NCBI GenBank assembly: GCA_018667995.1
Contig: JABIQT010000835.1
Location: 1 to 12,095, forward strand
Source of the DNA: Candidatus Latescibacterota bacterium
GTDB taxonomy: Bacteria > JAAXHH01 > JABIQT01
Length of the DNA stretch: 12,095 bases
Direction: 5' to 3'
Below the pieces are notes generated by a model. That model was not told the origin of the DNA and did no database searches. It saw only the letters and a program-made list of their open reading frames with translations. The translations under genes were made by a program, and so were the position numbers. This document shows, piece by piece, positions 3-11,804 of this stretch. How positions within the stretch are numbered: the stretch's first letter is position 1; the number at the start of each line of letters is the position of its first letter.

Positions 3-398
3 ATTCGTCAAGCTATTATCGGCCCGCCTACCTCGCGCCAGAGTGACCTCTATAATGTCGCGGTGGACACCTGTTATACGGGGCTTGATCTCATCCGCGA
101 AGGCGCCATACCCGAAGAGATTTCCAGGACAGTCGACTCATTCGCTGAGCGTTCACGATTCTCTGCACATTATCGATCTGCGGGTTGGTGTGGGCACAGT
201 CTTGGTCTGACCGTCCATGAACCACCCATGATCGAGGTAGGCAATCGGCGTCCTCTGCAAGCGGGAAATGTGCTGGCAATTGAACCGGATTTCCTGGAAG
301 AGGGTGTTGGTGTTTTCGGGATCGAGCAGAATGTACTGGTCAAGGAGGACGGCTATGAGCTATTGTCGCCTGTTGACCATGGTCTGTGGGTGATTTAG
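3..398 (+). CDS. M24 family metallopeptidase (Xaa-Pro peptidase-like), 3' fragment
   Basis: C-terminal part of a pita-bread-fold metallopeptidase that probably cleaves Xaa-Pro dipeptides or removes N-terminal residues before proline; its 5' end lies outside the window. The frame is open from base 3 and gives 131 residues. Visible M24 hallmarks, numbered within the fragment, are GHSLG (His65, metal ligand), VHE (His72, second active-site histidine), AIEP (Glu94, metal ligand) and IEQN (Glu108, metal ligand). The two upstream aspartate ligands of the dinuclear site are missing only because of the window edge. An internal GTG at 63 would cut into the conserved helix before these motifs, so it is not the true start. 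The stop is 11 bp from the convergent PhyH stop. Family assignment is firm; substrate is unknown. Confidence 0.9.
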   Translation: MRQAIIGPPTSRQSDLYNVAVDTCYTGLDLIREGAIPEEISRTVDSFAERSRFSAHYRSAGWCGHSLGLTVHEPPMIEVGNRRPLQAGNVLAIEPDFLEEGVGVFGIEQNVLVKEDGYELLSPVDHGLWVI

Positions 399-409
399 AA
401 TGCCGGTAT

Positions 410-1210
410 TCAGCCGTGTCCATGACAATGGCTATAGCGAAAAATCTCCCTCGCTCGCTCCGACATACGTTCCCAGCCGTCGCTGAGATCTACCGTCGGG
501 ATAACTTCCGGTAATCTGTGGAATCTCCGGAAGTAGACGACGGCGATCATGCTCCGTATGGCGTCCGTAGTGTTCGGCATTCCCCGGTGGAGCATACGCA
601 TGTCGCGCACCACGACAGGCCCTGCTGGCATTACGGTCCGAACCGATGGCAGCGCCGCAGCCCTCTCCTCCGGCCAGCGTGTGTAAGGATCTTCAATAAT
701 CTCCTGGTCGGTGTCGACTACCAGATGTGATCCTGGCCATACTTCCGTACAACCATTTTCAACGGTAAAATCAACGAGCGGGATGTTCACCACCAAGGTA
801 GCGGGCGGCAAGGCGTAAGGCAACTCCGGGAACAGATGTTTGGAGTCACGATGGATCCATTGCACCGGCGAGCCCGGCCAGGCCGTATTGCAGCCATAGG
901 GCAGATACGAATAGAAATCGCTTCCCAGTGCGCGCTCGATAACCTGTATAGCCAACGGATGCTCTATGATTAACGGGTCAAGAAACTGACCGGTCATGGG
1001 AGGCGAACCACCGCCGTGTTCGGGTGGCGGTTTGCCATCCACCAGCATCAAGAGTTCCTCCTCAAATGCGGCGCGGGCGCCCTCCAGCCATGGCGCGGAC
1101 AATACCCCCTCAAAGACAACATATCCCACATCCCGCAATCTCTGAGTAGCATGATCCAGGTTTCTCCGTGTCAACACTCCGGCCGTGATCTCGGCATCTG
1201 TGATTTTCAT
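410..1210 (-). CDS. Phytanoyl-CoA dioxygenase (PhyH) family protein
   Basis: Fe(II)/2-oxoglutarate-dependent oxygenase of 266 residues, a normal length for bacterial PhyH proteins. It would hydroxylate a small substrate with release of CO2 and succinate. The iron triad is visible: the HxD motif in WIHRDSKH (His120, Asp122) and the distal histidine in MLHRGMPN (His208). Arg219 in AIRSM fits the 2-oxoglutarate carboxylate anchor. The N-terminal GYVVFEGVL strand and the NGCTEVWPGSH segment are typical. The start ATG has a GAGGG-type ribosome site about 9 nt upstream. It is the last gene of a leftward block after the MFS gene, with a 60-bp gap, so co-transcription is plausible. It is clearly diverged from the other PhyH gene at 7957. 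Bacterial PhyH proteins rarely act on phytanoyl-CoA, so the substrate cannot be named. Confidence 0.92.
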   Translation of the reverse strand: MKITDAEITAGVLTRRNLDHATQRLRDVGYVVFEGVLSAPWLEGARAAFEEELLMLVDGKPPPEHGGGSPPMTGQFLDPLIIEHPLAIQVIERALGSDFYSYLPYGCNTAWPGSPVQWIHRDSKHLFPELPYALPPATLVVNIPLVDFTVENGCTEVWPGSHLVVDTDQEIIEDPYTRWPEERAAALPSVRTVMPAGPVVVRDMRMLHRGMPNTTDAIRSMIAVVYFRRFHRLPEVIPTVDLSDGWERMSERAREIFRYSHCHGHG

Positions 1211-1270
1211 GATCTATGGCCCTCTCAAGTCGCTACATCAAGCCGCTCTTCCCAGGTAATTCATGTCGCA

Positions 1271-2521
1271 TCAGTCGATCGCATCCTTGTCACGGAACCC
1301 CGGCACTTTTAACAGCGTACCGGCTATCCCGATCAGTGCAGCGCCCGCGCTTAAAGCCAGAGCCACCGGACTACCGAGGATAGTTGCCAGCCCCCCTATT
1401 TGTAGCCTTCCCAGTGGTCCGCCTCCGATGGCCAGAGCGAGGGCGCCTATCATTCGAGCACGCATACTATCGCTGGCCGACTTCAGAATAATGGATGACT
1501 GCATCACACTGAAACCCGACTGTCCAATACCCGTGACAATCAGCAGAAAGATCGAGAGAGAGTACGATGTGGACAGTGCGAATCCGATAATAGCCGCCGA
1601 CCCCAATATTGAACTCCCCGCAAGTATCCAGCCACTACGGCCATAGCGTTTGAGCCAGTTGACAGGCACAATACCGATAAATGCGCCGATGCCGATGCTA
1701 GCCCCGAGAATGCCGAGGCCGATCGGTCCCTGATGAAGGATGTCACGAGCAAATACCGGCAAGAGTGTCTGATATGGGAAGGTGAGCGCATTCATAAACA
1801 GTGTGATCAGCAGGACGCCCATTATGGGTTGGCTGCTGCGGATATAATGATAGCCCTCTTTGAGATCTTTCCAGGATGATCCGGAACCTGTATCTGCCGT
1901 GCTGTCTGTAGAATGGCTCATCCTTGTAAGAATGGCGAGTTCTACCACGTACATTCCAAACAGCAATGGAAATCCACCTTCGACTCCGAGGTATTCGAGT
2001 ATGATTCCGCTTACAAACGGTCCGGCAACTCGGGATATATTCTGAGGTATGTTCTCCAGAACCATTGCATCAAGGGTTCGATCCTTGCCCACCAGATCGG
2101 GTATCAGAGCCCGACGCGAAGACCAGTCATAGGCCCCACCGATCCCAATAAGGACGGAACCTACTGCAAGATGCCAGAATTCCAAACGGCCTGAAAGAAC
2201 TAGGAATGATAGTGCTGCGAAGAGAAAGACGTTGACGATCTGAGAGACGATTATAATACGGCGGTAGCTGAAACGTGCCGCTACCGTGCTGATAAAAGGT
2301 CCAAATAGGAGGAAGGGTAGCATCCTGTAGAATCCTACCAGAGCTACTTGTCCTGCGGAGTTGGTGAGTTCCAGGACGACCCACCCGATAATGATCTGCT
2401 CCATCCATCGGGTCTGCCACCAGAGAATATTCGCCAGCCAGAGGCACCGAAAATCAGGTACCGTTAAAGGCGTGACTACCTTCCACTTTTTAGAGAGCTT
2501 CTGTAGACCCGTCTGGATCAG
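1271..2521 (-). CDS. MFS transporter, EntS-like exporter family (MFS_3), start uncertain
   Basis: Integral inner-membrane transporter with a long run of hydrophobic helices. The motif-A-like loop GPFISTVAARFSYRRI lies between TM2 and TM3, as in the EntS/MFS_3 group of exporters. The first canonical start is ATG at 2404, giving 377 residues, but this cuts off half of TM1. The same frame upstream encodes a typical family N-terminus (VPDFRCLWLANILWWQTRW) and stays open to a stop at 2552-2554. It contains no ATG, GTG or TTG. I place the start tentatively at CTG 2521 (416 residues), which has AAGG 9 nt upstream; ATC at 2518 is an alternative, and a sequence error that removed the start is also possible. 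It lies between the aldo/keto reductase and PhyH genes. The substrate is unknown; export of a small molecule is the usual role of this family. Confidence 0.85.
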   Translation of the reverse strand: MIQTGLQKLSKKWKVVTPLTVPDFRCLWLANILWWQTRWMEQIIIGWVVLELTNSAGQVALVGFYRMLPFLLFGPFISTVAARFSYRRIIIVSQIVNVFLFAALSFLVLSGRLEFWHLAVGSVLIGIGGAYDWSSRRALIPDLVGKDRTLDAMVLENIPQNISRVAGPFVSGIILEYLGVEGGFPLLFGMYVVELAILTRMSHSTDSTADTGSGSSWKDLKEGYHYIRSSQPIMGVLLITLFMNALTFPYQTLLPVFARDILHQGPIGLGILGASIGIGAFIGIVPVNWLKRYGRSGWILAGSSILGSAAIIGFALSTSYSLSIFLLIVTGIGQSGFSVMQSSIILKSASDSMRARMIGALALAIGGGPLGRLQIGGLATILGSPVALALSAGAALIGIAGTLLKVPGFRDKDAID

Positions 2522-2689
2522 AGCGGTGTGCCTTAGGGTTCTGGTTGTGAATCAGTAAGAAATGAGCTACACGTTAAGATCGAGGCACGCATGGCCACGC
2601 CTGCCCAGCTTCGTGGTGGCGCCTCTCTGATTCTTGATTCACGTGAATCAAACAGAATCACTGGTCTTTGAAGGTCGATATTGGGCACA
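2522..2689. other. Intergenic gap between aldo/keto reductase and MFS genes
   Basis: This 168-bp stretch separates two leftward genes, or 285 bp if the MFS gene really starts at 2404. I see no gene in it. Its one striking element is the nested palindrome at 2628-2660, annotated separately. No clear -35/-10 pair for the MFS gene was found. Confidence 0.6.
2628..2660. promoter_or_regulatory. Nested palindrome, candidate operator
   Basis: The core, TGATTCACGTGAATCA at 2635-2650, is a perfect 16-bp palindrome centred on CG. It is flanked by a second inverted pair, TGATTCT at 2628-2634 and AGAATCA at 2654-2660. The left arm is therefore a tandem TGATTCT/TGATTCA, and the right arm is its complement with a 3-bp AAC insert. 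A symmetrical site with a central CG is typical of LacI/GalR-type operators (established knowledge); assigning it to such a regulator is inference. It lies 30 bp past the reductase stop and about 107 bp before the proposed MFS start. A terminator reading is possible because the transcript could fold, but there is no T-run on either side. Confidence 0.5.
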
Positions 2690-3685
2690 CTATCGTCCAC
2701 GTACAGGATATTGCGGATCATTGTAGCCGTGCCCGGTATGCTCCCCTTTAGGCGCAATTGCATCTACCGCGGATTCATCATCCGTGGTGAGGGTGACATC
2801 GAGAGCTCCGAGGTTATCCTCCAGCTGATCAAGAGTCCGGGGACCGACGATTACGGATGTTAGAATTGGGTTCGCCAGGGCCCAGGCCAAAGAGAATTGG
2901 GACAAACCAACGCCATGTGCATCTGCAAGTGGTTTCAGTGCTTGGGCGGTTACCATACTCTCGTCGCGGAGTTCCGTCTGCTGAATACGCTTGTCTCCCC
3001 TTTCGGCACGGGAGCCAGGAGGAAGTGGCGCCCCGGGAGCGTATTTCCCGGTCAGGATGCCCCGCGCCAAAGGACTGTATGATACCACACCAAGACCATA
3101 TTTCTGGCATAGAGGCAGCAACTCCAATTCCGGATCCCTATTTACGATATTGTATAAAGGCTGCACAGCAGCGAAGGACGCATACCGATTCTCACGACTA
3201 ACGTATAGCGCCTCACACACTTGCCAGGCATAGTAATTGGAGCAAGCTATATACCTGATTTTTCCGGCACGCACACAGTCATCCAGTGCACCCAAAGTCT
3301 CCTCTGCCGACGCCGCATAATCGGGAGCATGGATATAATAAAGATCGATGTAATCCGTATCCATCCTGGCCAGACTGTCATCTACCGCCTTCAAGATGTG
3401 CCCTCGGCCTGCACCTTGATCATTGGGTCCTTCGCCCATTGGGCCGCGACCTTTTGTGGCCAGGACGATATCCTGGCGTCTGTCTTTGATCGCCTTTCCG
3501 ACAATCCGCTCCGATTCGCCGCCATTGTAGACGTTGGCCGTATCAATGAAGTTTATGCCGGCATCCAGAGCCCGGGCGATGATACGGATTGAATCTGCTT
3601 CGTCTGTCGGTCCGCCGAACATCATCGCCCCGAGACAAAGCGGCGATACTTTTACTCCCTGCCTACCTAGATTGTGATAGTCCAT
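2690..3685 (-). CDS. Aldo/keto reductase
   Basis: NAD(P)H-dependent oxidoreductase of 331 residues with an AKR (alpha/beta)8 barrel, probably cytosolic, acting on an aldehyde, ketone or sugar. All four catalytic tetrad residues are in place: Asp48 and Tyr53 (FIDTANVYN), Lys78 (ATKGR) and His119 (YYIHAPD). The C-terminal SVIVGPRTLDQLEDNL segment, about residues 275-292, is the usual cofactor-phosphate-binding region. NLGRQGVKVSPLCLG is the standard N-terminal barrel-plug segment. The ATG has AAGGA 6 nt upstream. The gene is divergent from the PIG-L gene and first in the leftward block reductase-MFS-PhyH. The sequence is of the general oxidoreductase type near YajO and sugar dehydrogenases, so the exact substrate cannot be told. 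Confidence 0.93.
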   Translation of the reverse strand: MDYHNLGRQGVKVSPLCLGAMMFGGPTDEADSIRIIARALDAGINFIDTANVYNGGESERIVGKAIKDRRQDIVLATKGRGPMGEGPNDQGAGRGHILKAVDDSLARMDTDYIDLYYIHAPDYAASAEETLGALDDCVRAGKIRYIACSNYYAWQVCEALYVSRENRYASFAAVQPLYNIVNRDPELELLPLCQKYGLGVVSYSPLARGILTGKYAPGAPLPPGSRAERGDKRIQQTELRDESMVTAQALKPLADAHGVGLSQFSLAWALANPILTSVIVGPRTLDQLEDNLGALDVTLTTDDESAVDAIAPKGEHTGHGYNDPQYPVRGR

Positions 3686-3716
3686 GACGATTCCTTATGA
3701 TCTACACCAAAAAGTA

Positions 3717-3744
3717 TTGACGAGTATTTCACGCATTCTATATT
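3717..3744 (+). promoter_or_regulatory. Sigma70-type promoter for the PIG-L gene group
   Basis: TTGACG at 3717-3722 and TATATT at 3739-3744 are separated by 16 bp. Both hexamers match the sigma70 consensus at five of six positions. Transcription would begin near 3751, leaving a 5' leader of about 90 nt before the ATG at 3843. Because it lies downstream of the ATG at 3684, it argues against that longer start for the PIG-L protein. Confidence 0.65.
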
Positions 3745-3765
3745 CTCCCCTGAATCCCTGCACAA
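3737..3765 (-). promoter_or_regulatory. Possible overlapping promoter for the aldo/keto reductase
   Basis: On the minus strand TTGTGC (3765-3760) and TATAGA (3742-3737) are separated by 17 bp. The match to consensus is only moderate: three of six and four of six. Its -10 overlaps the -10 of the rightward PIG-L promoter, so the two would compete for polymerase. It is the best candidate in this divergent gap but is weak by itself. Confidence 0.3.
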
Positions 3766-3828
3766 CGCCTGCTCAAGGGCATCCGGATTGTTCAACATAT
3801 CCGGCACCCGGAAGTACGTCAATCCAAA

Positions 3829-3834
3829 AGAAGG
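3829..3834 (+). promoter_or_regulatory. Ribosome binding site deciding the PIG-L start
   Basis: AGAAGG lies 8 nt before the ATG at 3843. The other in-frame ATG at 3684 overlaps the start of the divergent reductase and lies upstream of the predicted transcription start. The 53 extra residues it would add do not resemble the PIG-L family. Confidence 0.6.
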
Positions 3835-3842
3835 CACTGGCC

Positions 3843-4706
3843 ATGGCCGACCCTCTACGCATTCTCTCTATCGGCGCACATCCTGCAGATATATTCGATC
3901 AATCGGGCGGAACCATGGCTCATCACAGGGACCAGGGCGACTGGGTAGGGTGTGTCGTGCTCACCCACGGCGCTCGTGTCCATGATGAAATCATCAGCGA
4001 ACAGATGTTTCACATGGAGCAGGTGCCGGATGCCGATGATCTGACAAACATGATGAACGAAAGAGCCGAAATAAAGGCGAATGAAGTCCGAGCAGCCTGT
4101 CGTGCTCTTGGCGTAGAGGATGTCTTCTTCTTCGGCGCCGACGACTCCGTCTTACTACCAGACAAACCCACCGTCCAACGTCTTGCTCGATTCCTGCGCG
4201 AACAGAAACCGGATGTCATTTTGACCCACTTTCCCGAAGAGGGAGGTGGCATCTGGAATCCACACGCGGCTACCGGGCAAATCGTCATGCTCGCCCTTGG
4301 ACTTGCAGGATCGGTAGATCCTGGCGATCGAAATCCCCCGCACCGAGTCATGCAGATCTTCTACTGGGGTTGCGGCGCTGCCAGCCTTCCCAGCAAGGTA
4401 TGGGATGCCAGAGGAGGGTACTACAACGATCTTTTCATCGACATAACAGATGTGGTTGACAAGAAGCTCGCAGCATTGGACGCACTGGCAAGTCAGGGAT
4501 ATGGCGGCGAATACGCCAGAAAGCGCATCGAAACCTCGGATGGCGCCTTTGGAACCGCAGGGGGTGTCGCATACGCCGAAGGATTCATAAAGGCCAATGC
4601 AGAGACCCATTACGTCCTTCCCGTAACAGACTATGCACGCCAGTCCGCCCGCGACTCGGACCATGAACGTATGGCACGTTACAGCTACAGGATACCCACC
4701 AGGTAG
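3843..4706 (+). CDS. PIG-L family deacetylase, HPAD variant
   Basis: A 287-residue protein of the PIG-L/LmbE/MshB fold, which normally removes N-acetyl groups from GlcNAc-type substrates using zinc. The N-terminal strand and metal motif read GAHPADIFDQSGG. His13 and Asp16 fit two zinc ligands, and His141 in WNPHAATG fits the third. The usual motif is HPDD, whose first Asp is the general base in MshB; here that position is Ala15. The family's later HPDH segment is also altered to WNPH. Activity may therefore differ from classical deacetylases, or another acid such as Glu132/133 (PEEGG) may substitute. The start was chosen from the ribosome site and promoter. The gene is first of a rightward group with the DUF4258/DUF2283 pair, 6 bp after its stop. 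Fold is confident; reaction is not. Confidence 0.88.
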   Translation: MADPLRILSIGAHPADIFDQSGGTMAHHRDQGDWVGCVVLTHGARVHDEIISEQMFHMEQVPDADDLTNMMNERAEIKANEVRAACRALGVEDVFFFGADDSVLLPDKPTVQRLARFLREQKPDVILTHFPEEGGGIWNPHAATGQIVMLALGLAGSVDPGDRNPPHRVMQIFYWGCGAASLPSKVWDARGGYYNDLFIDITDVVDKKLAALDALASQGYGGEYARKRIETSDGAFGTAGGVAYAEGFIKANAETHYVLPVTDYARQSARDSDHERMARYSYRIPTR

Positions 4707-4712
4707 TAGGCC

Positions 4713-4964
4713 ATGGCCATTCGCATTCATCCACACGCCCGCGACCGAATGAAGGAACGCGGCTCACTTGACACCGAAGTTGTTGCCGCGGTCGCCCAAG
4801 GAGAGCAGTTTCCCGTCCAGTTCGGGCGCACAGGGTTTCGCAGAAATTTCCCTTTCCCCCATGAATGGCGCGGTCAGCGATACCGTATGAAACAGGTAGA
4901 GGCATATGCCATACAGGAAGATATGGATTGGCATGTGATCACAGTGGTAACAAGGTATTTCTGA
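4713..4964 (+). CDS. DUF4258-like small protein, putative RelE-fold toxin
   Basis: An 83-residue protein with the DUF4258 pattern: a leading histidine/arginine segment HPHARDRMKERG (residues 6-17), then a short helix ending in a glycine-glutamate turn (VAQGEQ), and a C-terminal strand HVITVVTRYF. DUF4258 proteins are related to the RelE/ParE fold and often stand next to a small partner. The next gene, 24 bp downstream, is a DUF2283 protein, a pairing seen in many bacteria and thought to be a toxin-antitoxin-like module. Toxicity is inference and no catalytic residue is assigned. The ATG follows the PIG-L stop by 6 bp with a weak TAGG ribosome site, suggesting translational coupling. Confidence 0.72.
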   Translation: MAIRIHPHARDRMKERGSLDTEVVAAVAQGEQFPVQFGRTGFRRNFPFPHEWRGQRYRMKQVEAYAIQEDMDWHVITVVTRYF

Positions 4965-4988
4965 TTTCAACCAATCGGGACAATCGCC

Positions 4989-5231
4989 ATGCGCATGTCT
5001 TATGATCCGCGATTCAATATCGCCTATATACGCTTTCATGAATCCCGCGACGATGTTGAGACCATTCAGATCAGCGACGAACTCAGCATCGATCTATCTG
5101 CCGATGGTATGGTTTACGGAATTGAGTTTATGAACGCCAACGAACAATTGAAAAGAGATGAGAACGGGAAGGTCCTGATCATTAACGAGGCCACCGGGGA
5201 ATCAAACGAATTGCCCTTGGATATCGAATAG
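4989..5231 (+). CDS. DUF2283 family protein, putative antitoxin partner
   Basis: An 80-residue acidic protein with the DUF2283 signature: N-terminal MSYDPRFNIAYIRF strand, a middle TIQISDELSIDLSADGMVYGIEF section with the typical Asp-rich turn and glycine, and a charged tail. The family is usually 60-80 residues long and commonly follows a DUF4258 or related gene, as here. A role as antitoxin or regulator of the upstream protein is inferred from that pairing only. Translation could begin at Met1 (4989) or Met3 (4995); neither has a strong ribosome site, since only a GGGA precedes. It is the last gene before a 400-bp gap. Confidence 0.78.
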   Translation: MRMSYDPRFNIAYIRFHESRDDVETIQISDELSIDLSADGMVYGIEFMNANEQLKRDENGKVLIINEATGESNELPLDIE

Positions 5232-5627
5232 AGCAAGATGATCGTCACGACTTTCTTGCGGATTTTGCGATCGCGTCGTTCGGCAAGATTACCGATTGAT
5301 GATATAGCCGCAAACCCCGGCAACTGGCATGCTCCTAACCTCTTTCTCGACTGACCAGGTAGCGGATGCTCGGGGTCAACCGAAGCACGGGATATTACCG
5401 ACACCGGCTTCGACAGTGCCTGAAGAGGCGCCTATATTCTTCACGGAGCAGTTTGATGATGACGGTAGTCACAGTTATGACCGCACATTATGCGTAGGTT
5501 TCTGCGAAGACGACCTCATCGTCTGCAAAGCATGGCGTGACGCAAACGCTCAGACAGAACATTGTTCGGCAAAATGAAGAAAAAGTAAACCAAGACGACT
5601 ATTCAACGGATATCTGGGAGTTAAAGT
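5232..5627. other. 396-bp gap without a convincing gene
   Basis: Between DUF2283 and the rhamnose mutarotase I find no recognisable gene, RNA or clear promoter. One frame stays open from about 5305 to 5577 (ATG at 5329, 82 residues). Its C-terminal half has a plausible protein-like run, RTLCVGFCEDDLIVCKAWRD, but there is no ribosome site and no family I know. A 38-residue frame begins at 5238. The promoter of the five-gene operon should lie in the right-hand part, but no good hexamer pair was seen. Confidence 0.5.
5329..5577 (+). CDS. Doubtful hypothetical ORF
   Basis: An 82-residue open frame in an otherwise empty gap. The first half is rich in Pro, Thr and Ser and looks non-coding; the second half, with DDLIVCKAWRD, is more protein-like. 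No ribosome binding site precedes the ATG and I recognise no family. It may be chance, or a decayed remnant. Confidence 0.15.
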   Translation: MLLTSFSTDQVADARGQPKHGILPTPASTVPEEAPIFFTEQFDDDGSHSYDRTLCVGFCEDDLIVCKAWRDANAQTEHCSAK

Positions 5628-5948
5628 ATGCAGCGCGTCGGATTCATGTTGAAGGTGAAGCAAGAAAAAATGGAAGAATACAAGAAGCACCATGAAAACA
5701 TCTGGCCCGAGATGCTCGAGGCACTGAGTGAGGCGGGTTGGCATAACTACTCGCTGTTTATGACCGAGGAAGGCGTACTCTTTGGGTATGTGGAAACACC
5801 CGATTTTGACCAGGCCCTGGCAAAAATGGCAGAAACCGACGTCAACACCCGCTGGCAGGATTTCATGGCGCCTTACTTCGAGAACATTGGTGGCAAGCAC
5901 GCCGATGACAACATGGTCCCTCTGGAGCGGGTGTTCTATCTTGAGTAG
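5628..5948 (+). CDS. rhaM: L-rhamnose mutarotase family protein (RhaM-like)
   Basis: Small cytosolic dimeric ferredoxin-like-fold enzyme of 106 residues (E. coli RhaM has 104) that interconverts alpha and beta anomers of L-rhamnose or a related deoxy-sugar. Conserved features line up with RhaM: Tyr18 and the catalytic-type His22 in EYKKHHENIWPEM, HNYSLF at about 39-44 including Tyr41, TDVNTRW at about 69-75, and the C-terminal LERVFYLE. A GGGAG ribosome site lies 7 nt before the ATG. It heads a tight five-gene operon and there is no rhamnose isomerase or kinase nearby, so the sugar may be L-rhamnose, L-fucose or another 6-deoxy sugar. The family is sure; the exact substrate is not. Confidence 0.93.
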   Translation: MQRVGFMLKVKQEKMEEYKKHHENIWPEMLEALSEAGWHNYSLFMTEEGVLFGYVETPDFDQALAKMAETDVNTRWQDFMAPYFENIGGKHADDNMVPLERVFYLE

Positions 5949-5970
5949 AGAGACCGTTGCTTCTACCTCT

Positions 5971-5975
5971 GGAGG
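5971..5975 (+). promoter_or_regulatory. Ribosome binding site deciding the DapA-like start
   Basis: GGAGG lies 6 nt before the ATG at 5982. A TTG at 5979 is also in frame but would leave only 3 nt of spacing, so the ATG is chosen. Confidence 0.75.
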
Positions 5976-5981
5976 TACTTG

Positions 5982-6893
5982 ATGTTGCCTATCCGGGGTA
6001 TGGTACCCGTGCTACCCACTCCCTTTGATGGTGCCGAAGAAATAGATGCCCCTAGTCTTGGCCGCGTTATTGACTACTGCATCGACCATGGTGCAGCGGC
6101 GGTGTGTCTCCCCGCCTATGGGGGTGAATTCTACAAACTCTCAGATGCAGAGCGCATCGATGTGGTCCGTCTGGCTGTAAACCATTCCAACGGTCGGATT
6201 CCTGTAATCGGCCAGGCCAACCATCCCTCAAGTCGCATTGCGATTGACTTGGCGCTGCAGATGCAGGACATTGGCGTTGATCTAATCAGCGTTGCCGTGC
6301 CACGTGTGTTTGGCCTCGGGGAGGACGATCTTCTTCGCTATTTCATTCCGCTGTCAAACGCGCTCTCAGTTCCGTTGCTGATTCAAGACTTCAATCCAGG
6401 CGGACCAACGGTAGGGCCGCAGTTCGCGAAACGGCTACACGAGGAATGTCCCAATTTCAGGTATCTAAAGCTCGAAGAACCTATGATGGGCTCCAAAGCC
6501 GCAGGAATCATCGAGGCTACAGCGGGGGGCGTGTCCGTACTGGAAGGTTGGGGCGGTATGTACATGCTCGAACTCATCCCCTCGGGTATATGCGGTGTCA
6601 TGCCGGGCGTGGCTGCGTTTCCGGTTCTGGACCGGGCGTATCGCTTGCATATCGACGGAAATATACAGGCAGCCTATGAGGTATTCTCACGTATACTACC
6701 TTTTATTGTTTACCAGCTCCAACATATGGAGTTGTATCTGAATTCCGAGAAACGCATACTGCACAGGCTTGGATTACTTGACAAACCACAGATTCGTGAA
6801 GCAGCTCTCTCACTGGATCCGGCTGTCATAGAGTACGGCGATTTCCTAATTGATCGCGTCATTGAAGTGTTGGACGGTTCGAACGATTTCTGA
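5982..6893 (+). CDS. DapA superfamily (dihydrodipicolinate synthase-like) lyase
   Basis: TIM-barrel class I aldolase/lyase of 303 residues, the usual family length. Members form a Schiff base with a 2-oxo acid and make or split a carbon bond. The Schiff-base lysine is Lys163 in FRYLKLEEP. The GTTGE motif that binds the 2-oxo acid carboxylate in DapA is here AYGGE (45-49). The catalytic tyrosine region, normally YNVP, reads IQDFNPGG (Q135-D136-F137-N138-P139), so the proton-relay Tyr is absent. This makes true lysine biosynthesis unlikely. A sugar-acid lyase such as a 2-keto-3-deoxy acid aldolase fits the neighbours: the mutarotase lies 33 bp upstream and the epimerase is in the same operon. 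Reaction and substrate are inferred, not shown. Confidence 0.9.
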   Translation: MLPIRGMVPVLPTPFDGAEEIDAPSLGRVIDYCIDHGAAAVCLPAYGGEFYKLSDAERIDVVRLAVNHSNGRIPVIGQANHPSSRIAIDLALQMQDIGVDLISVAVPRVFGLGEDDLLRYFIPLSNALSVPLLIQDFNPGGPTVGPQFAKRLHEECPNFRYLKLEEPMMGSKAAGIIEATAGGVSVLEGWGGMYMLELIPSGICGVMPGVAAFPVLDRAYRLHIDGNIQAAYEVFSRILPFIVYQLQHMELYLNSEKRILHRLGLLDKPQIREAALSLDPAVIEYGDFLIDRVIEVLDGSNDF

Positions 6894-6916
6894 AACTCCA
6901 GATTGAAAGGTCATAC

Positions 6917-7942
6917 GTGGCAGTAGAGCATTCAGACGCCCAAGTTTTGAGCACCGACGACCATATACTGATCTCGAAGGTAGTCGATGCCCTGCAAGCT
7001 TCCAATCGGTCAGATGCGCCCCAGCTTGAACACTCCATAAAGGCCTCCATTGACAATCTTCAGAGGCTCGCTTCATTAATGATGGATTACCCGTCCACCC
7101 GCCAAAGTCAAAAGCTCGGACAGGACACGCGCGACCATAGTACCCTCATTGAGGCCCTATCGAAAGCCACGCCATTCACGACCGACCTGGTCCTACCCAT
7201 GCGGGTAATGGTCGGACAGACCTACCTGATGGCTCGTCTCAATTTCTTTCGTTTGTTACTTCGCGTAGCCCGGGAAACGGGATCCGTAAAGAGCCTCGAA
7301 AATGACGTTATGGAGCGAATCAGCCAGAACATCCATGCCCGCGTCATTGAAATACTGCTCCAGTCCATTGTGGGGGACAACACCGTAGAACAGTCGGTCC
7401 GTGCGAAGGGCGCGGAAGCACTTACGCTGGTTTGGGAAGATCGGATCTCAAGCGGTTTGGAAACTTTTCGCCCCGTACTGGAAGCAACCTGGGAGGCGAG
7501 ACGCAAAATATCGGTCCAACTGGGTACCTTTATGGGTGTATCCGAGATATTCTCTCTCTTGGGAGAAGGCTGCGACTTTCGGTTCATAGACTATTTCGGT
7601 CGGGGTATCTGCTCTCAGGAGGAGCAACAGGCCCTTGAGGAGTTCCTGTTCGGAATGTCAAAGGAGAGAATTGATTCTCTCAAGGTCAAAATGGTCGAGA
7701 CGGAGTCCACGGTCACAGATCCGCTTGAATCCCCCGACGCCCTGAATGCTTCGTATCTGGATCACCATTCTCTCACTGATTTTGTCACCCGATTGTATCT
7801 CTTCTTTGTAAAGAGGCATTTGGAAGCCATGACACGCCGGGTAAGTGGCGCTCCGGGCCCCAAGCGTACTGCTGAGGAGTACGTTATGATCTACTTCTTA
7901 AGTCAGGATCAACCCATGGGGCCGTCTGATGACTCTCCTTAA
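6917..7942 (+). CDS. Unrecognised all-helical protein, possibly HEAT-like
   Basis: A 341-residue protein I do not recognise. It starts with GTG, supported by GAAAGG 6 nt upstream, and sits 23 bp after the DapA-like gene and 14 bp before the PhyH gene, so it belongs to the operon. There is no signal peptide, no convincing membrane helix and no cysteine cluster. It looks almost wholly alpha-helical and charged. The stretch EQSVRAKGAEALTLVWEDRI has the spacing of a HEAT/ARM repeat helix pair, which is inference. Residues 90-120 (LVLPMRVMVGQTYLMARLNF) are amphipathic and may be a core or membrane-touching helix. The codon pattern and lack of stops show a real gene. It might be a scaffold or regulator for the pathway enzymes, but no function is assigned. 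Confidence 0.85.
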   Translation: MAVEHSDAQVLSTDDHILISKVVDALQASNRSDAPQLEHSIKASIDNLQRLASLMMDYPSTRQSQKLGQDTRDHSTLIEALSKATPFTTDLVLPMRVMVGQTYLMARLNFFRLLLRVARETGSVKSLENDVMERISQNIHARVIEILLQSIVGDNTVEQSVRAKGAEALTLVWEDRISSGLETFRPVLEATWEARRKISVQLGTFMGVSEIFSLLGEGCDFRFIDYFGRGICSQEEQQALEEFLFGMSKERIDSLKVKMVETESTVTDPLESPDALNASYLDHHSLTDFVTRLYLFFVKRHLEAMTRRVSGAPGPKRTAEEYVMIYFLSQDQPMGPSDDSP

Positions 7943-7956
7943 GGTAAGGTAGTGGT

Positions 7957-8739
7957 ATGTTGGATGTGGACCTTATAGCCAGTAGCGACGTTGATCGGGC
8001 GGTAACCACGTTTCACCGTGAGGGATTTGTAGCTGTGAGCGGTGCGCTCTCCAAGGAGCAACTGACGCTCGCCCAGGCGGGCGCCCGGCGCGTAATCGAG
8101 GAGCAGACCGCAGCCATACCCCTTGTGGAGGCGAATCGGGGATTTGCACGCTATTCGTTCGGTCAACAGATTCATCATCCCGAATGGCAGCAACTTATAG
8201 ATCTTCCTGCAGTCCTGCCCATTCTGGAGCGCATCTGGGGTAGTGCGGACTTCAATTGCACAGGAGCGGGAGGCGACTACTCCCTTCCCGGTGCCAAAAT
8301 CCAGCATCTGCACGCCGACATAGGTGACTTTTTCAACGACCCGCTAGGTCAGGTGACCTCTTTCGATGTGCCGGCTCCACATATCGTGATCAACTACCTA
8401 ATGGTTGATTTTCACGAGAAAAATGGAGCCATACGTTTTATTCCTTGTACGCAGCGAAACCGCCAGGCACCGCCTGCTCTTGACGAGGAACCCGATTGGA
8501 TGAAGAAATCCTTCGTTTGCGCCCCGGCAGGCACCGCGCTGATCCGGGATGTCCGATGCTGGCACGGCGGAACAGCAAACAGATCCGATGAGGTCCGTCC
8601 CATGACCAGTGCGGGTTATTTCGCTCCCTGGTATTATCGTAGAATACAGGAACCTCGAATGAGTCGTTCCGTCTATGAGAATCTCTCGAAGAACGCCAAA
8701 GATCTATGTCGTTTAATGGTAGACCCTCAACTCGGTTAA
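7957..8739 (+). CDS. Phytanoyl-CoA dioxygenase (PhyH) family protein
   Basis: Fe(II)/2-oxoglutarate-dependent oxygenase of 260 residues. The iron ligands are HxD in HLHADIGD (His119, Asp121) and the distal histidine in CWHGGTANRS (His203). Arg214 in EVRPM fits the 2-oxoglutarate anchor. The N-terminal FHREGFVAVSGALS strand-helix and the NGAIRFIPCTQ segment are typical. AAGG lies 7 nt before the ATG. Its place between the helical unknown and the epimerase-like gene, with gaps of 14 and 16 bp, suggests a hydroxylation or oxidative dealkylation step on the operon's substrate, for example removal of a methyl or alkyl group from a modified sugar. That is inference. It differs clearly from the 410-1210 paralogue around the active site. 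Confidence 0.92.
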   Translation: MLDVDLIASSDVDRAVTTFHREGFVAVSGALSKEQLTLAQAGARRVIEEQTAAIPLVEANRGFARYSFGQQIHHPEWQQLIDLPAVLPILERIWGSADFNCTGAGGDYSLPGAKIQHLHADIGDFFNDPLGQVTSFDVPAPHIVINYLMVDFHEKNGAIRFIPCTQRNRQAPPALDEEPDWMKKSFVCAPAGTALIRDVRCWHGGTANRSDEVRPMTSAGYFAPWYYRRIQEPRMSRSVYENLSKNAKDLCRLMVDPQLG

Positions 8740-8755
8740 CACCGGGAAGGAAATC

Positions 8756-9583
8756 ATGATAAAACTAGGCTGCATGTCCCTTAGCTATAACAAAGCAATA
8801 AGCGAAGGTCGTATGACGCTGGAATCTTTCATCGATACGGCCTACGGCATGGGATTGGATGGAATAGATCTTCACACCCGTGCTATTGCATCCATGGACG
8901 ATGCCTATCTACGCGACATCCGAATGAGATGCCTGAAACGTGGGCTTGCAATTTCCTACATCGGTATCAGTAATAACTTCGGCAAGCCCGAGGCAGACCT
9001 TGATGCAGAAGTCGATATGGTCAAGGGTTGGATTGACGTAGCCGAGCGAATGAGAATCCCTCTGGTAAGGATTTTTGCCGCGTGGGAGCGTGATGAGAAG
9101 GACCCGGATACGCTCTGGGCCAGAATGATATCCTGCATAAAGGAAGTGGCTGATTATGGCGGTAAAAAAGGTATCGTGGTGGGGTTGCACAATCACAATC
9201 ACGGCTGTGTCACGCGCACAGCCGATGATGTGCTGCGAATCCTATCTGAAGTAGATCACCCTTACTTTTCGCATATACTGGACACCGGTCAATATGTGGG
9301 TTCCCCAGGTGCATCCGGCGCGAATGGCGTGGAGGATCCGACCCACGATTTCTACGGTAGCATCGGCAAGTCCGCCCCCCATGCCGTGCACGTACGTGCG
9401 AAGATATATCGCATACAGAGCGGCGAAGAGGCATGGCTCGATTACCCCAGAATCATTAAGATCCTCAGGGATGTGGAGTATAATGGCTGGATGTCCATCG
9501 TTTACGAAGGTCAGGCAGTCGAGGCGGAGGAAGAGGCCGTCCCGAAAGCGGTCCGGTATCTGAGAGGGCTTCTGAAAGAATAG
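8756..9583 (+). CDS. Sugar phosphate isomerase/epimerase-like TIM barrel (AP_endonuc_2)
   Basis: A 275-residue xylose-isomerase-like TIM-barrel protein; the family includes sugar epimerases, inosose dehydratases and related metal enzymes. Expected ligands are visible: Asp176 in HILDTGQY, His212 in HAVHVRAK and Glu251 in IVYEGQ. The first ligand, usually Glu in an ENHG motif, is replaced: the segment reads GLHNHNHG, with His147 at the Glu position. GGAAGG lies just upstream of the ATG. It is the last operon gene and ends 12 bp before a strong terminator stem. In this setting it probably isomerises or epimerises the sugar or keto-sugar handled by the mutarotase and the DapA-like lyase. The exact reaction cannot be told. 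Confidence 0.9.
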   Translation: MIKLGCMSLSYNKAISEGRMTLESFIDTAYGMGLDGIDLHTRAIASMDDAYLRDIRMRCLKRGLAISYIGISNNFGKPEADLDAEVDMVKGWIDVAERMRIPLVRIFAAWERDEKDPDTLWARMISCIKEVADYGGKKGIVVGLHNHNHGCVTRTADDVLRILSEVDHPYFSHILDTGQYVGSPGASGANGVEDPTHDFYGSIGKSAPHAVHVRAKIYRIQSGEEAWLDYPRIIKILRDVEYNGWMSIVYEGQAVEAEEEAVPKAVRYLRGLLKE

Positions 9584-9595
9584 TCAGTTCGGGGT

Positions 9596-9625
9596 GCCTG
9601 CCGAATCCACAGTTATTCGGCAGGC
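9596..9625. terminator. Convergent hairpin terminator
   Basis: GCCTGCCGAAT (9596-9606) and ATTCGGCAGGC (9615-9625) form a perfect 11-bp GC-rich stem with an 8-nt loop. It lies 12 bp past the epimerase stop and contains the last codons and stop of the convergent Fe-S gene. On the + strand a T-rich stretch (ATTGTTTC) follows, giving a fair intrinsic terminator. On the - strand no T-run follows, so termination in that direction is less sure. Confidence 0.75.
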
Positions 9626-11697
9626 AGATTGTTTCTGGCAACCAACTGGGCAATATCCATTACCTGTATTTCCTCATCCTTATCCAGGGCTTTGAGACCG
9701 TCATTGACCATAATCCGACAGAACGGGCATGCGGTGGCTATTGTCCCGGCGCCAGTTTCTACTGCTTCTGATGTTCGGTTCACATTTACCCGATCGCCGG
9801 ACTCCTCCATCCACATCTGTGCCCCGCCAGCTCCACAGCAGAAGCTCTTTTCGCGGGTGCGCGGCATTTCAGAAATCTCTTCGCCTGCTGCCTGTCTGAC
9901 AACGTCTCTGGGGGCCTCATATTCGTCATTCCATCGTCCCAGATAACACGGATCGTGGTACGTGACACCGCCTTCAATCTTACCGTCGCCTTTCAACTTT
10001 CCGTCTCTGATGAGTTCCTGGATGAACTGCGAATGATGGACGACTTCGTAGCTGCCTTCAAACTGAGGGTACTCGTTCTTGAAACTATGTAAACAGTGCG
10101 GGCACGATGTCAGGATTTTCTTCACATCGTATTGCTTGAAAGCCTCGATATTCTGCTCAGCCATTGTCTGGAACAGGTATTCATTTCCCGCCCGGCGGGC
10201 CGCATCACCCGTACATCCTTCCTCATTACCCAACACAGCATAATCGACTCCAGCTTGGTTCAGCAATGAAATCAAAGCCCGCGTAGTCTTCTGCCCCTCA
10301 GGGTCGAAGCTGCCAGCGCAGCCAACCCAGACAAGATATTCCGCCGTTCCTTTTTCGGCCATTATCGGAACATCCAGGTCCTTTGCCCAGTCCATTCGGC
10401 TCTCAGCTCCCATTCCCCAGGGATTAGAGTTTGTTTCCATACCGCGGAACATTCGTCCCAATTCATTCGGTATTCGGCCCTCGGTGAGCGTCAGATGGGT
10501 ACGCATCTGGACAATGGCAAGAGGCTGCTCAATAAAGACGGGACAAGATTCCTCGCAGGCCCCACATGTGGTACAAGCCCACAATGCCTCTTCCGAAACA
10601 CGTCCGCCCACCATAGGGGGCTGCTCCGCGAGCATATCCAGTATCGTCTGTTCCTGCTCATTGGGGCTCAGACCCTCAATTTCATCATCTCCACTGGTAT
10701 TCACGCCCGACCGAATCTGGATGAGCCCTTCGCCCCTCGCTTTCATTTCGTCCCGCATATCATGGATGATCTTCATGGGGCTGAGTGGCTTTCCGGTGAC
10801 GTAAGCCGGACAATTGTTAGTGCACCGAGCGCATTCGGTACAGGCATAGCTATCAAGCAACGCCTTCCAGTCAAACTGTTCATAGCGTCCCGCACCCCAT
10901 TGGTCCATATCTTCGAGATCCACCTTCGGTAGAATTCCTTTCTGCGCCTTTCGGCGGAGCAGGATATTGGGTAATGAACCGAGAAGATGGAGGTGTTTGG
11001 AGTAGGGTATATAATTGAGAAAGAAGAGGATGATAATCACGTGCACCCAGTAAGCAGCAGAGGCTACAGTGTGCGCGCTACCGTGAGAAAAGGTCTCTGC
11101 TATCCTGCCGAACTGTGCGGACACGGGCATGTATTCAGGTGATCCCGGTGGCCCCATTATGGCTGCCACTAAAGCCGGATCTCCACCGGATTTCACCGGA
11201 AAATGGAATCCGTGACTCACGAAATGTGACAGACAGAGCATTCCGATCATACCAAGAATCAGTCCGGCGTCCGCGCTCATGGGTATCAGGTTCGGCCGCA
11301 GAACTATCCTGCGGAAAAGAGCATAGAGAATCATGACAAGAACTACGAGATTCACCACATCTAAGGTCGCTTTGAACACCGCATTGAATGTAGACCCAAA
11401 CAGCTCAAACGATAGTGTGGGAATCAGCCCGTTTATCAAGATCTCAACCGTACCAGCTACGATCACCCAGAAACCCCAGAATATCAACAGATGATGCCAG
11501 CTTGTAGCTTCTCGCGCCACAGATCGCTGGAGGAAAAAGTAATTGACCACATCGACAATTCGTGCCCCCCATTGATCCCAGATCCTGTCAGCGGGCCGAC
11601 CACGCATCATTTTCCTGATCATCCGCTGAACGGTCCAGGCGAAACCCGAAAATGAGGCGAGTATCAAAACAAAGAAAATTATGGTTGTCATGGACAT
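9613..11697 (-). CDS. Membrane Fe-S oxidoreductase, NarI-like cytochrome b fused to ferredoxin and CCG domains (ETF:menaquinone oxidoreductase type)
   Basis: A 694-residue integral membrane protein. Residues 5-230 hold about five membrane helices with heme-ligand-type histidines (H68/H69, H158/H162, H219, H235/H237), like the nitrate reductase gamma subunit. Two [4Fe-4S] ferredoxin motifs follow: C286/C289/C292/C296 and C375/C378/C381/C385. Two CCG-type cysteine domains come next: C460, C495 (EEGCTGD), C532, C535, then C584, C620, C621, C657, C660. This is the HdrD/GlpC-like layout of the enzymes that pass electrons from electron transfer flavoprotein to menaquinone in beta-oxidation. That role is established for the family and inferred here, as no etfAB genes are in the window. 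The start at 11697 is set by GAAAGGA 6 nt upstream and by the promoter; a GTG at 11790 would lie before the transcription start. Confidence 0.9.
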   Translation of the reverse strand: MSMTTIIFFVLILASFSGFAWTVQRMIRKMMRGRPADRIWDQWGARIVDVVNYFFLQRSVAREATSWHHLLIFWGFWVIVAGTVEILINGLIPTLSFELFGSTFNAVFKATLDVVNLVVLVMILYALFRRIVLRPNLIPMSADAGLILGMIGMLCLSHFVSHGFHFPVKSGGDPALVAAIMGPPGSPEYMPVSAQFGRIAETFSHGSAHTVASAAYWVHVIIILFFLNYIPYSKHLHLLGSLPNILLRRKAQKGILPKVDLEDMDQWGAGRYEQFDWKALLDSYACTECARCTNNCPAYVTGKPLSPMKIIHDMRDEMKARGEGLIQIRSGVNTSGDDEIEGLSPNEQEQTILDMLAEQPPMVGGRVSEEALWACTTCGACEESCPVFIEQPLAIVQMRTHLTLTEGRIPNELGRMFRGMETNSNPWGMGAESRMDWAKDLDVPIMAEKGTAEYLVWVGCAGSFDPEGQKTTRALISLLNQAGVDYAVLGNEEGCTGDAARRAGNEYLFQTMAEQNIEAFKQYDVKKILTSCPHCLHSFKNEYPQFEGSYEVVHHSQFIQELIRDGKLKGDGKIEGGVTYHDPCYLGRWNDEYEAPRDVVRQAAGEEISEMPRTREKSFCCGAGGAQMWMEESGDRVNVNRTSEAVETGAGTIATACPFCRIMVNDGLKALDKDEEIQVMDIAQLVARNNLPAE

Positions 11698-11703
11698 CGG
11701 ACG

Positions 11704-11710
11704 TCCTTTC
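11704..11710 (-). promoter_or_regulatory. Ribosome binding site deciding the Fe-S oxidoreductase start
   Basis: GAAAGGA on the minus strand ends 6 nt before the ATG at 11697. The in-frame GTG at 11790 has only a weak AGAG before it. Confidence 0.65.
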
Positions 11711-11775
11711 TCCAGGCTGTAGACTCGAAGGCTCGCGCCGTAAGGTGCCAGATCCATCGGGTCATAATTGAGCAA

Positions 11776-11804
11776 AATATAGTCCCCCACTCTCTGCGTG
11801 TCAA
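11776..11804 (-). promoter_or_regulatory. Near-consensus sigma70 promoter of the Fe-S oxidoreductase
   Basis: On the minus strand TTGACA (11804-11799) is a perfect -35. A 17-bp spacer follows, then TATATT (11781-11776), five of six to consensus. Transcription would begin near 11769, giving a leader of about 70 nt to the ATG at 11697. The gene is probably the first of its transcript. Confidence 0.75.

Follow-up and report, generated by a model that had tools for sequence, protein, structure and literature searches.

The locus considered here raises the question of whether five closely spaced, co-directional genes (A to E), encoding a mutarotase, a DapA-superfamily enzyme, a helical protein of an uncharacterised family, a PhyH-family dioxygenase and a TIM barrel protein, form a single catabolic unit and, if so, which compound the unit would act on and what a 2-oxoglutarate dioxygenase would contribute to it. 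The window, i.e. the whole stretch of 12,095 nucleotides that was analysed, lies on contig C543 of an assembly of metagenome-like character that totals 6.06 Mb over 1165 contigs. A sequence-only reading had described A to E as a five-gene operon suggestive of the breakdown of deoxy-sugars or uronates, possibly of a methylated sugar from which the PhyH protein would remove the methyl group oxidatively.

Gene structure and boundaries

The five open reading frames of that reading, together with their coordinates, family calls and intergenic gaps (33, 23, 14 and 16 bp for A-B, B-C, C-D and D-E), were recovered by ORF, start and profile analysis (Table 1). The start of B is the ATG directly 3' of the TTG listed at 5979, and a purine-rich Shine-Dalgarno-like stretch is found 5' of all five starts. 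Since each of A to E has relatives in the same taxonomic order at 50-79% identity, they are real genes. A strong stem had been proposed to close the unit; a stem is present between E and the convergent gene F, with fold z values of -3.4 on the + strand and -6.1 on the - strand. Given that its right arm reaches into the final codons of F and that only a weak T tract is present, the most it could be is a terminator shared by the two genes. Terminator-like sites across the region were not above chance (3 found, 4.1 expected).

Table 1. Features of the window discussed in the text, with best profile matches
Feature	Coordinates	Strand	Assignment	Profile match
M	1271..2404	-	MFS_3-type transporter, divergent	PF05977, 4.1e-35
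K	2690..3685	-	Aldo/keto reductase (AKR), between M and Z	PF00248, 3.3e-81
Z	3843..4706	+	PIG-L/LmbE-fold protein, hydratase-like (AHPAD); start read from sequence	PF02585, 2.8e-20
X/Y	4713..5231	+	DUF4258 + DUF2283 pair between Z and A	
A	5628..5948	+	RhaM-family mutarotase	PF05336 (rhaM), 2.9e-31
B	5982..6893	+	DapA-superfamily enzyme	PF00701 (DHDPS), 3.9e-21
C	6917..7942	+	All-helical protein, uncharacterised family; GTG start	
D	7957..8739	+	PhyH-family Fe(II)/2-oxoglutarate dioxygenase	PF05721 (PhyH), 2.9e-16
E	8756..9583	+	AP_endonuc_2 TIM barrel (isomerase/epimerase/lyase superfamily)	PF01261, 1.7e-27
12-bp stem	9595..9626	.	Between convergent E and F; possible shared terminator	

Conservation of the neighbourhood within the order

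Among the genomes searched, the only relatives of the window's genome belong to its own order, one in family f2 and 14 in the neighbouring family f3; everything else found shares with it no taxonomic rank below the domain. A core of Z-A-C-E is kept in all 14 f3 genomes, being split over two contigs in one of them (G011). In the 12 genomes of genus g3 a divergent MFS gene precedes Z-A-C-E and has an MR_MLE gene on its far side, and the arrangement in genus g5 (L025) is Z-A-C-D-E. Genus g4, represented by G011, carries Z-A on contig L106 and B-C-D-PfkB-HPS-PHI-E on a separate contig, L024, while the f2 genome (G001, L098) has Z-A followed by a DUF5916 protein and then B. Identities to the window genes are 75-82% for Z, 63-79% for A, 67-70% for B, 50-54% for C, 63-66% for D and 69-77% for E.

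Z adjoins A in the relatives wherever the contig extends that far, and M, which lies beside Z in 12 of 12 g3 genomes, is the sole other flank of the window that they retain. K, the X/Y pair, an M24 fragment and F were not retained at the loci fetched from this order, and the absence of flanking genes other than M indicates that the clustering is more than simple shared synteny. The X/Y pair seems to have been inserted between Z and A; a literature search found no paper on the gene cluster or on the DUF4258 + DUF2283 pair. Close orthologues of B occur only in G011 and G001, and D lies inside the cluster only in the window, G011 and G013, and stand-alone orthologues of D at 58-60% identity are present in most g3 genomes; both genes are therefore optional members. 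C is flanked by A and E in 13 of the 14 f3 genomes, and by B and D in the remaining one.

Outside the order, no neighbourhood containing A-D or Z was found, even beside E homologues that are 54-62% identical (f168, G054, G331), and as far as tested the cluster is thus limited to the order. The neighbourhood is conserved well beyond close strains and the genes do form a co-directional conserved cluster, but what is conserved is the core Z-A-C-E and not all five genes of the earlier reading, whose unit lacked Z and included B and D, which are absent from most relatives.

Enzyme assignments and proposed pathway

In PIG-L deacetylases such as MshB, the Asp of an AHPDD motif acts as the general base. 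Z carries AHPAD instead, in all four aligned orthologues, and its best solved relative is the 4-oxalomesaconate hydratase GalB (5cgz), whose motif is AHSAD, AHxAD being common to both. Judging from motif and nearest structure, a hydratase-like reaction is likelier for Z than that of a deacetylase. Similarly, enzymes of the D-tagatose/psicose 3-epimerase type carry a catalytic/metal Glu in an xENH-type motif, whereas in E the column aligned with the catalytic Glu of 4ovx holds His or Gln in 12 of 12 sequences (alignment A3). With the usual Glu replaced, the earlier call of a xylose-isomerase-like epimerase is doubtful, and E is described here as an AP_endonuc_2 barrel.

Amongst the remaining enzymes, A was rightly labelled as RhaM-type at the level of the family, however, its score against the L-rhamnose mutarotase equivalog TIGR02625 (78.5 bits) is below the cut-off of 99.6, and among solved structures its closest relative is an L-fucose mutarotase (7byu, 1.5e-15). 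No equivalog match to RhaA, RhaB, RhaD or a non-phosphorylative rhamnose set was obtained for the cluster genes tested. An L-rhamnose pathway is disfavoured by the sub-threshold RhaM score and by the lack of any further rha gene recognised among the cluster genes tested. Classical DapA carries a Tyr motif where B has QD, and the best solved relatives of B are L-2-keto-3-deoxyarabonate dehydratases (7c0c, 4.3e-26; 3fkk, 1e-25), which share QD at this position and with which the Schiff-base Lys of B is kept intact. The superfamily given to B earlier holds, but B is better read as a relative of keto-deoxy-acid dehydratases, closest to that of L-2-keto-3-deoxyarabonate, than as a DapA lyase. Three likely misannotations are corrected in this way, namely a deacetylase for Z, an epimerase for E and DapA for B.

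The best reading of the locus is a cluster for the non-phosphorylative catabolism of a sugar or sugar acid, with an optional PhyH step. From families and neighbourhoods we infer both the reactions and the substrate, which is probably an unusual deoxy- or methylated sugar. In the proposed sequence, A would equilibrate the anomers of the sugar, which would then be oxidised non-phosphorylatively, the AKR encoded by K being a candidate sugar dehydrogenase. The resulting sugar acid would be dehydrated to a 2-keto-3-deoxy acid, for which the candidate is the MR_MLE dehydratase found beyond M in g3; an orthologue of it at 76% identity lies on another contig (C213) of the window's genome. B could dehydrate or cleave the keto-deoxy acid, Z would act as a hydratase on a keto-acid, and E may rearrange or eliminate a keto-sugar. 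We consider the chances evenly balanced that the genes belong to a catabolic cluster of this kind, with M divergent from Z-A-C-E and with B and D as optional members after A and C, that serves a modified sugar or sugar acid through these steps. The idea of deoxy-sugar or uronate breakdown is thus borne out in so far as enzyme families of sugars and sugar acids make up a conserved cluster, its substrate and reactions remaining at the level of prediction. M is of the exporter type, an observation that was counted against a catabolic reading.

The PhyH protein and formaldehyde genes

D retains the metal ligands H119-x-D121 and H203 as well as the 2-oxoglutarate-binding R214, all intact and invariant (alignment A4), and thus has the complete HxD...H and Arg signature of Fe(II)/2-oxoglutarate dioxygenases. 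As an optional tailoring enzyme it would most likely hydroxylate an O-methyl group (or other substituent), which would be released as formaldehyde. In L024, the genes behind D are PfkB, which overlaps it by 4 bp, HPS, PHI and E, and from D to PHI most neighbours overlap or lie a few bp apart. The HPS (HxlA; TIGR03128, 226.4 bits against 200) and the PHI (HxlB; TIGR03127, 229.7 bits against 160) both exceed the curated cut-offs, as expected for RuMP formaldehyde fixation, and could fix formaldehyde made by D in this relative; the PfkB protein is weakly ribokinase-like. The PhyH-family proteins FJS and PHYHD1 demethylate 2'-O-methyl nucleosides, with formaldehyde release shown for FJS (PMC12709175), and demethylation chemistry is therefore precedented in the family; these 2-oxoglutarate enzymes remove an O-methyl group from a sugar moiety, as D would have to do, although their substrates are of another class and D sits in a sugar-acid cluster.

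The best support for oxidative demethylation comes from the RuMP genes close behind PhyH in L024, a single genome; in no other do HPS and PHI occur inside the cluster. In G013, whose cluster includes D, no HPS match was obtained, and for the HPS-PHI pair of g3 no PhyH partner was found among ten neighbouring genes, which are unrelated (LarC, Omp85). A second string, on another contig of the window's own genome, counts in favour of demethylation; its order is HPS-PHI-M19-PhyH-(cytochrome c-like)-PhyH, with overlaps among the first four genes. Each genome of the order has some 77 to more than 100 matches to PhyH, so that PhyH and HPS-PHI may plausibly, or even likely, come to lie side by side by chance. 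Oxidative methyl removal by PhyH thus gains something from the PfkB-HPS-PHI genes of one genome and loses something to the abundance of PhyH, and we regard O-demethylation by D as possible but doubtful.

The evidence on D can also be accommodated within the same sugar or sugar-acid cluster if the target of D is a sugar carbon, which it would hydroxylate or deaminate oxidatively without making formaldehyde, the HPS-PHI pair of L024 then providing pentoses. The kanamycin B dioxygenase KanJ carries out the oxidative deamination of a sugar carbon, and KanJ (1.4e-4) and AndA (2e-5) are among the closest solved relatives of D, which, like the absence of an HPS match in G013, argues for such a role. 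Both of these matches are weak, however, and PfkB-HPS-PHI lies directly behind D in L024; on balance this alternative is credible but unlikely.

Protein C

C had been set apart as an unrecognised helical protein, and this description stands, since no Pfam family reaches the cut-off, PDB sequences give no match and none of the fold matches is convincing. TerB was rejected, as the score of C (16.9, E 0.0077) is below the Pfam gathering threshold of 24.4 and only one of ten relatives matches. The first model, made from the window sequence, was poor (pLDDT 60.5) and a fold search with it gave nothing usable. The model of a Planctomycetota relative (pLDDT 78.5) is a generic helical bundle, for which Foldseek returned no match at E <= 0.001 and the best VIA-align matches had Z values of 9 or less, possibly generic helical bundles as well. 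Relatives at 31-39% identity are found in Planctomycetota and in one deltaproteobacterial MAG, with more distant ones in three further genomes. The cluster thus exposes an uncharacterised family with a near-invariant C-terminal motif, GPK(R/K)TAEEYVMIYFL, across phyla.

In Planctomycetota, all five loci long enough to show gene order have upp-C-mutM, a setting of pyrimidine salvage and DNA repair, from which it was deduced that C is not specific to sugar catabolism. Our guess is that C, rather than being a pathway enzyme, was probably recruited to the cluster as a helical protein with an accessory or regulatory function. The same gene order, the variation of B and D among relatives and the ubiquity of PhyH in the genomes of the order would all fit a loose neighbourhood, in which a pathway common to Z, A and E is accompanied by the passengers B, C and D, whose roles are separate and, for C, of a housekeeping kind. 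The near-constant position of C in f3, together with the gaps of 14-33 bp here and the overlapping or near-touching genes of L024, makes so loose an association improbable. Salvage of 2'-O-methylated ribosides, with D as an FJS/PHYHD1-like demethylase, A and PfkB handling ribose and C linked to pyrimidine salvage, would suit the ribokinase-like PfkB, the position of C beside upp and the FJS-like sequences of Poribacteria (PMC12709175), but is very improbable given that PHYHD1 is not among the matches of D to solved structures at E <= 0.01, that the cluster has no nucleosidase or nucleoside transporter and that B and MR_MLE indicate sugar acids.

Comparison with known systems

The catabolic cluster favoured here resembles the non-phosphorylative pathways for L-arabinose, L-fucose and L-rhamnose in the relatives of B (L-2-keto-3-deoxyarabonate dehydratase) and A (L-fucose mutarotase), as well as in an AKR that adjoins the cluster in the window and an MR_MLE dehydratase that adjoins it in relatives. 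It differs from them in its additional PhyH protein, GalB-like PIG-L protein, variant TIM barrel and protein C, and in that no 2-oxoglutarate semialdehyde dehydrogenase or lactonase was seen within the window.

A proportion of PhyH genes above 1.9% is reported as a hallmark of Poribacteria (PMC3909097), and the PhyH counts of the present order are alike. Judging from this likeness and from the isolated position of the order, the lineage of the window is probably poribacterial or close to it. In the passages of that paper that were covered, the only use assigned is that of 2-aminoethylphosphonate, for a few PhyH proteins, and no description of the present cluster was found. In the conserved cluster one PhyH protein is associated with sugar-acid enzymes, and in one relative with the fixation of formaldehyde as well, which gives a concrete assay. 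The fullest version, a sugar operon in which PhyH O-demethylates a methylated sugar, HPS and PHI of the same operon capture the formaldehyde in some relatives and C represents a new family shared with Planctomycetota, is rather unlikely; if true, it would assign a first function to some of the expanded PhyH genes of Poribacteria. Oxidative O-demethylation of a sugar with release of formaldehyde, as proposed for D, has a counterpart in porphyran-degrading marine bacteria, which demethylate 6-O-methyl-D-galactose (PMC10033563); there a cytochrome P450 with its redox partners is used, whereas here the enzyme would be a PhyH 2-oxoglutarate dioxygenase acting on a putative substrate.

Genomic context of the locus

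Protein C, an all-helical protein, belongs to an uncharacterised yet conserved family with a salvage/repair context in Planctomycetota, where the gene order upp-C-mutM was found in all five loci of sufficient length (L017, L018, L019, L021 and L022), upp encoding uracil phosphoribosyltransferase.

On comparison with relatives' loci, the DUF4258 + DUF2283 pair, possibly toxin-antitoxin-like at a guess, was present at the Z/A junction in the window's lineage only; together with the following ~396 bp, which contain no recognisable gene, this apparent insertion may have split A-E from Z.

Features in the window and its genome
Feature	Position	Strand	Location
DUF4258 + DUF2283 gene pair	4713-5231		between Z (PIG-L/LmbE-fold) and A (mutarotase)
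HPS-PHI-M19 dipeptidase-PhyH-cytochrome c-like-PhyH string	L096 (G000:C258), 102-5486		same genome as window
Second PhyH gene	410-1210	-	far side of MFS transporter
Large gene, 4Fe-4S + CCG cysteine-rich domains (HdrD-like)	9613-11790	-	convergent

The first four genes of the HPS-PHI string overlap. PhyH matches range from about 77 to >100 per genome across the whole order (about 102 candidates scored at most), first-look candidates numbering 88-176. The second PhyH gene in the window retains intact ligands and shares 25% identity with D, the PhyH of A-E. The HdrD-like product apparently carries membrane segments at its N-terminal end.
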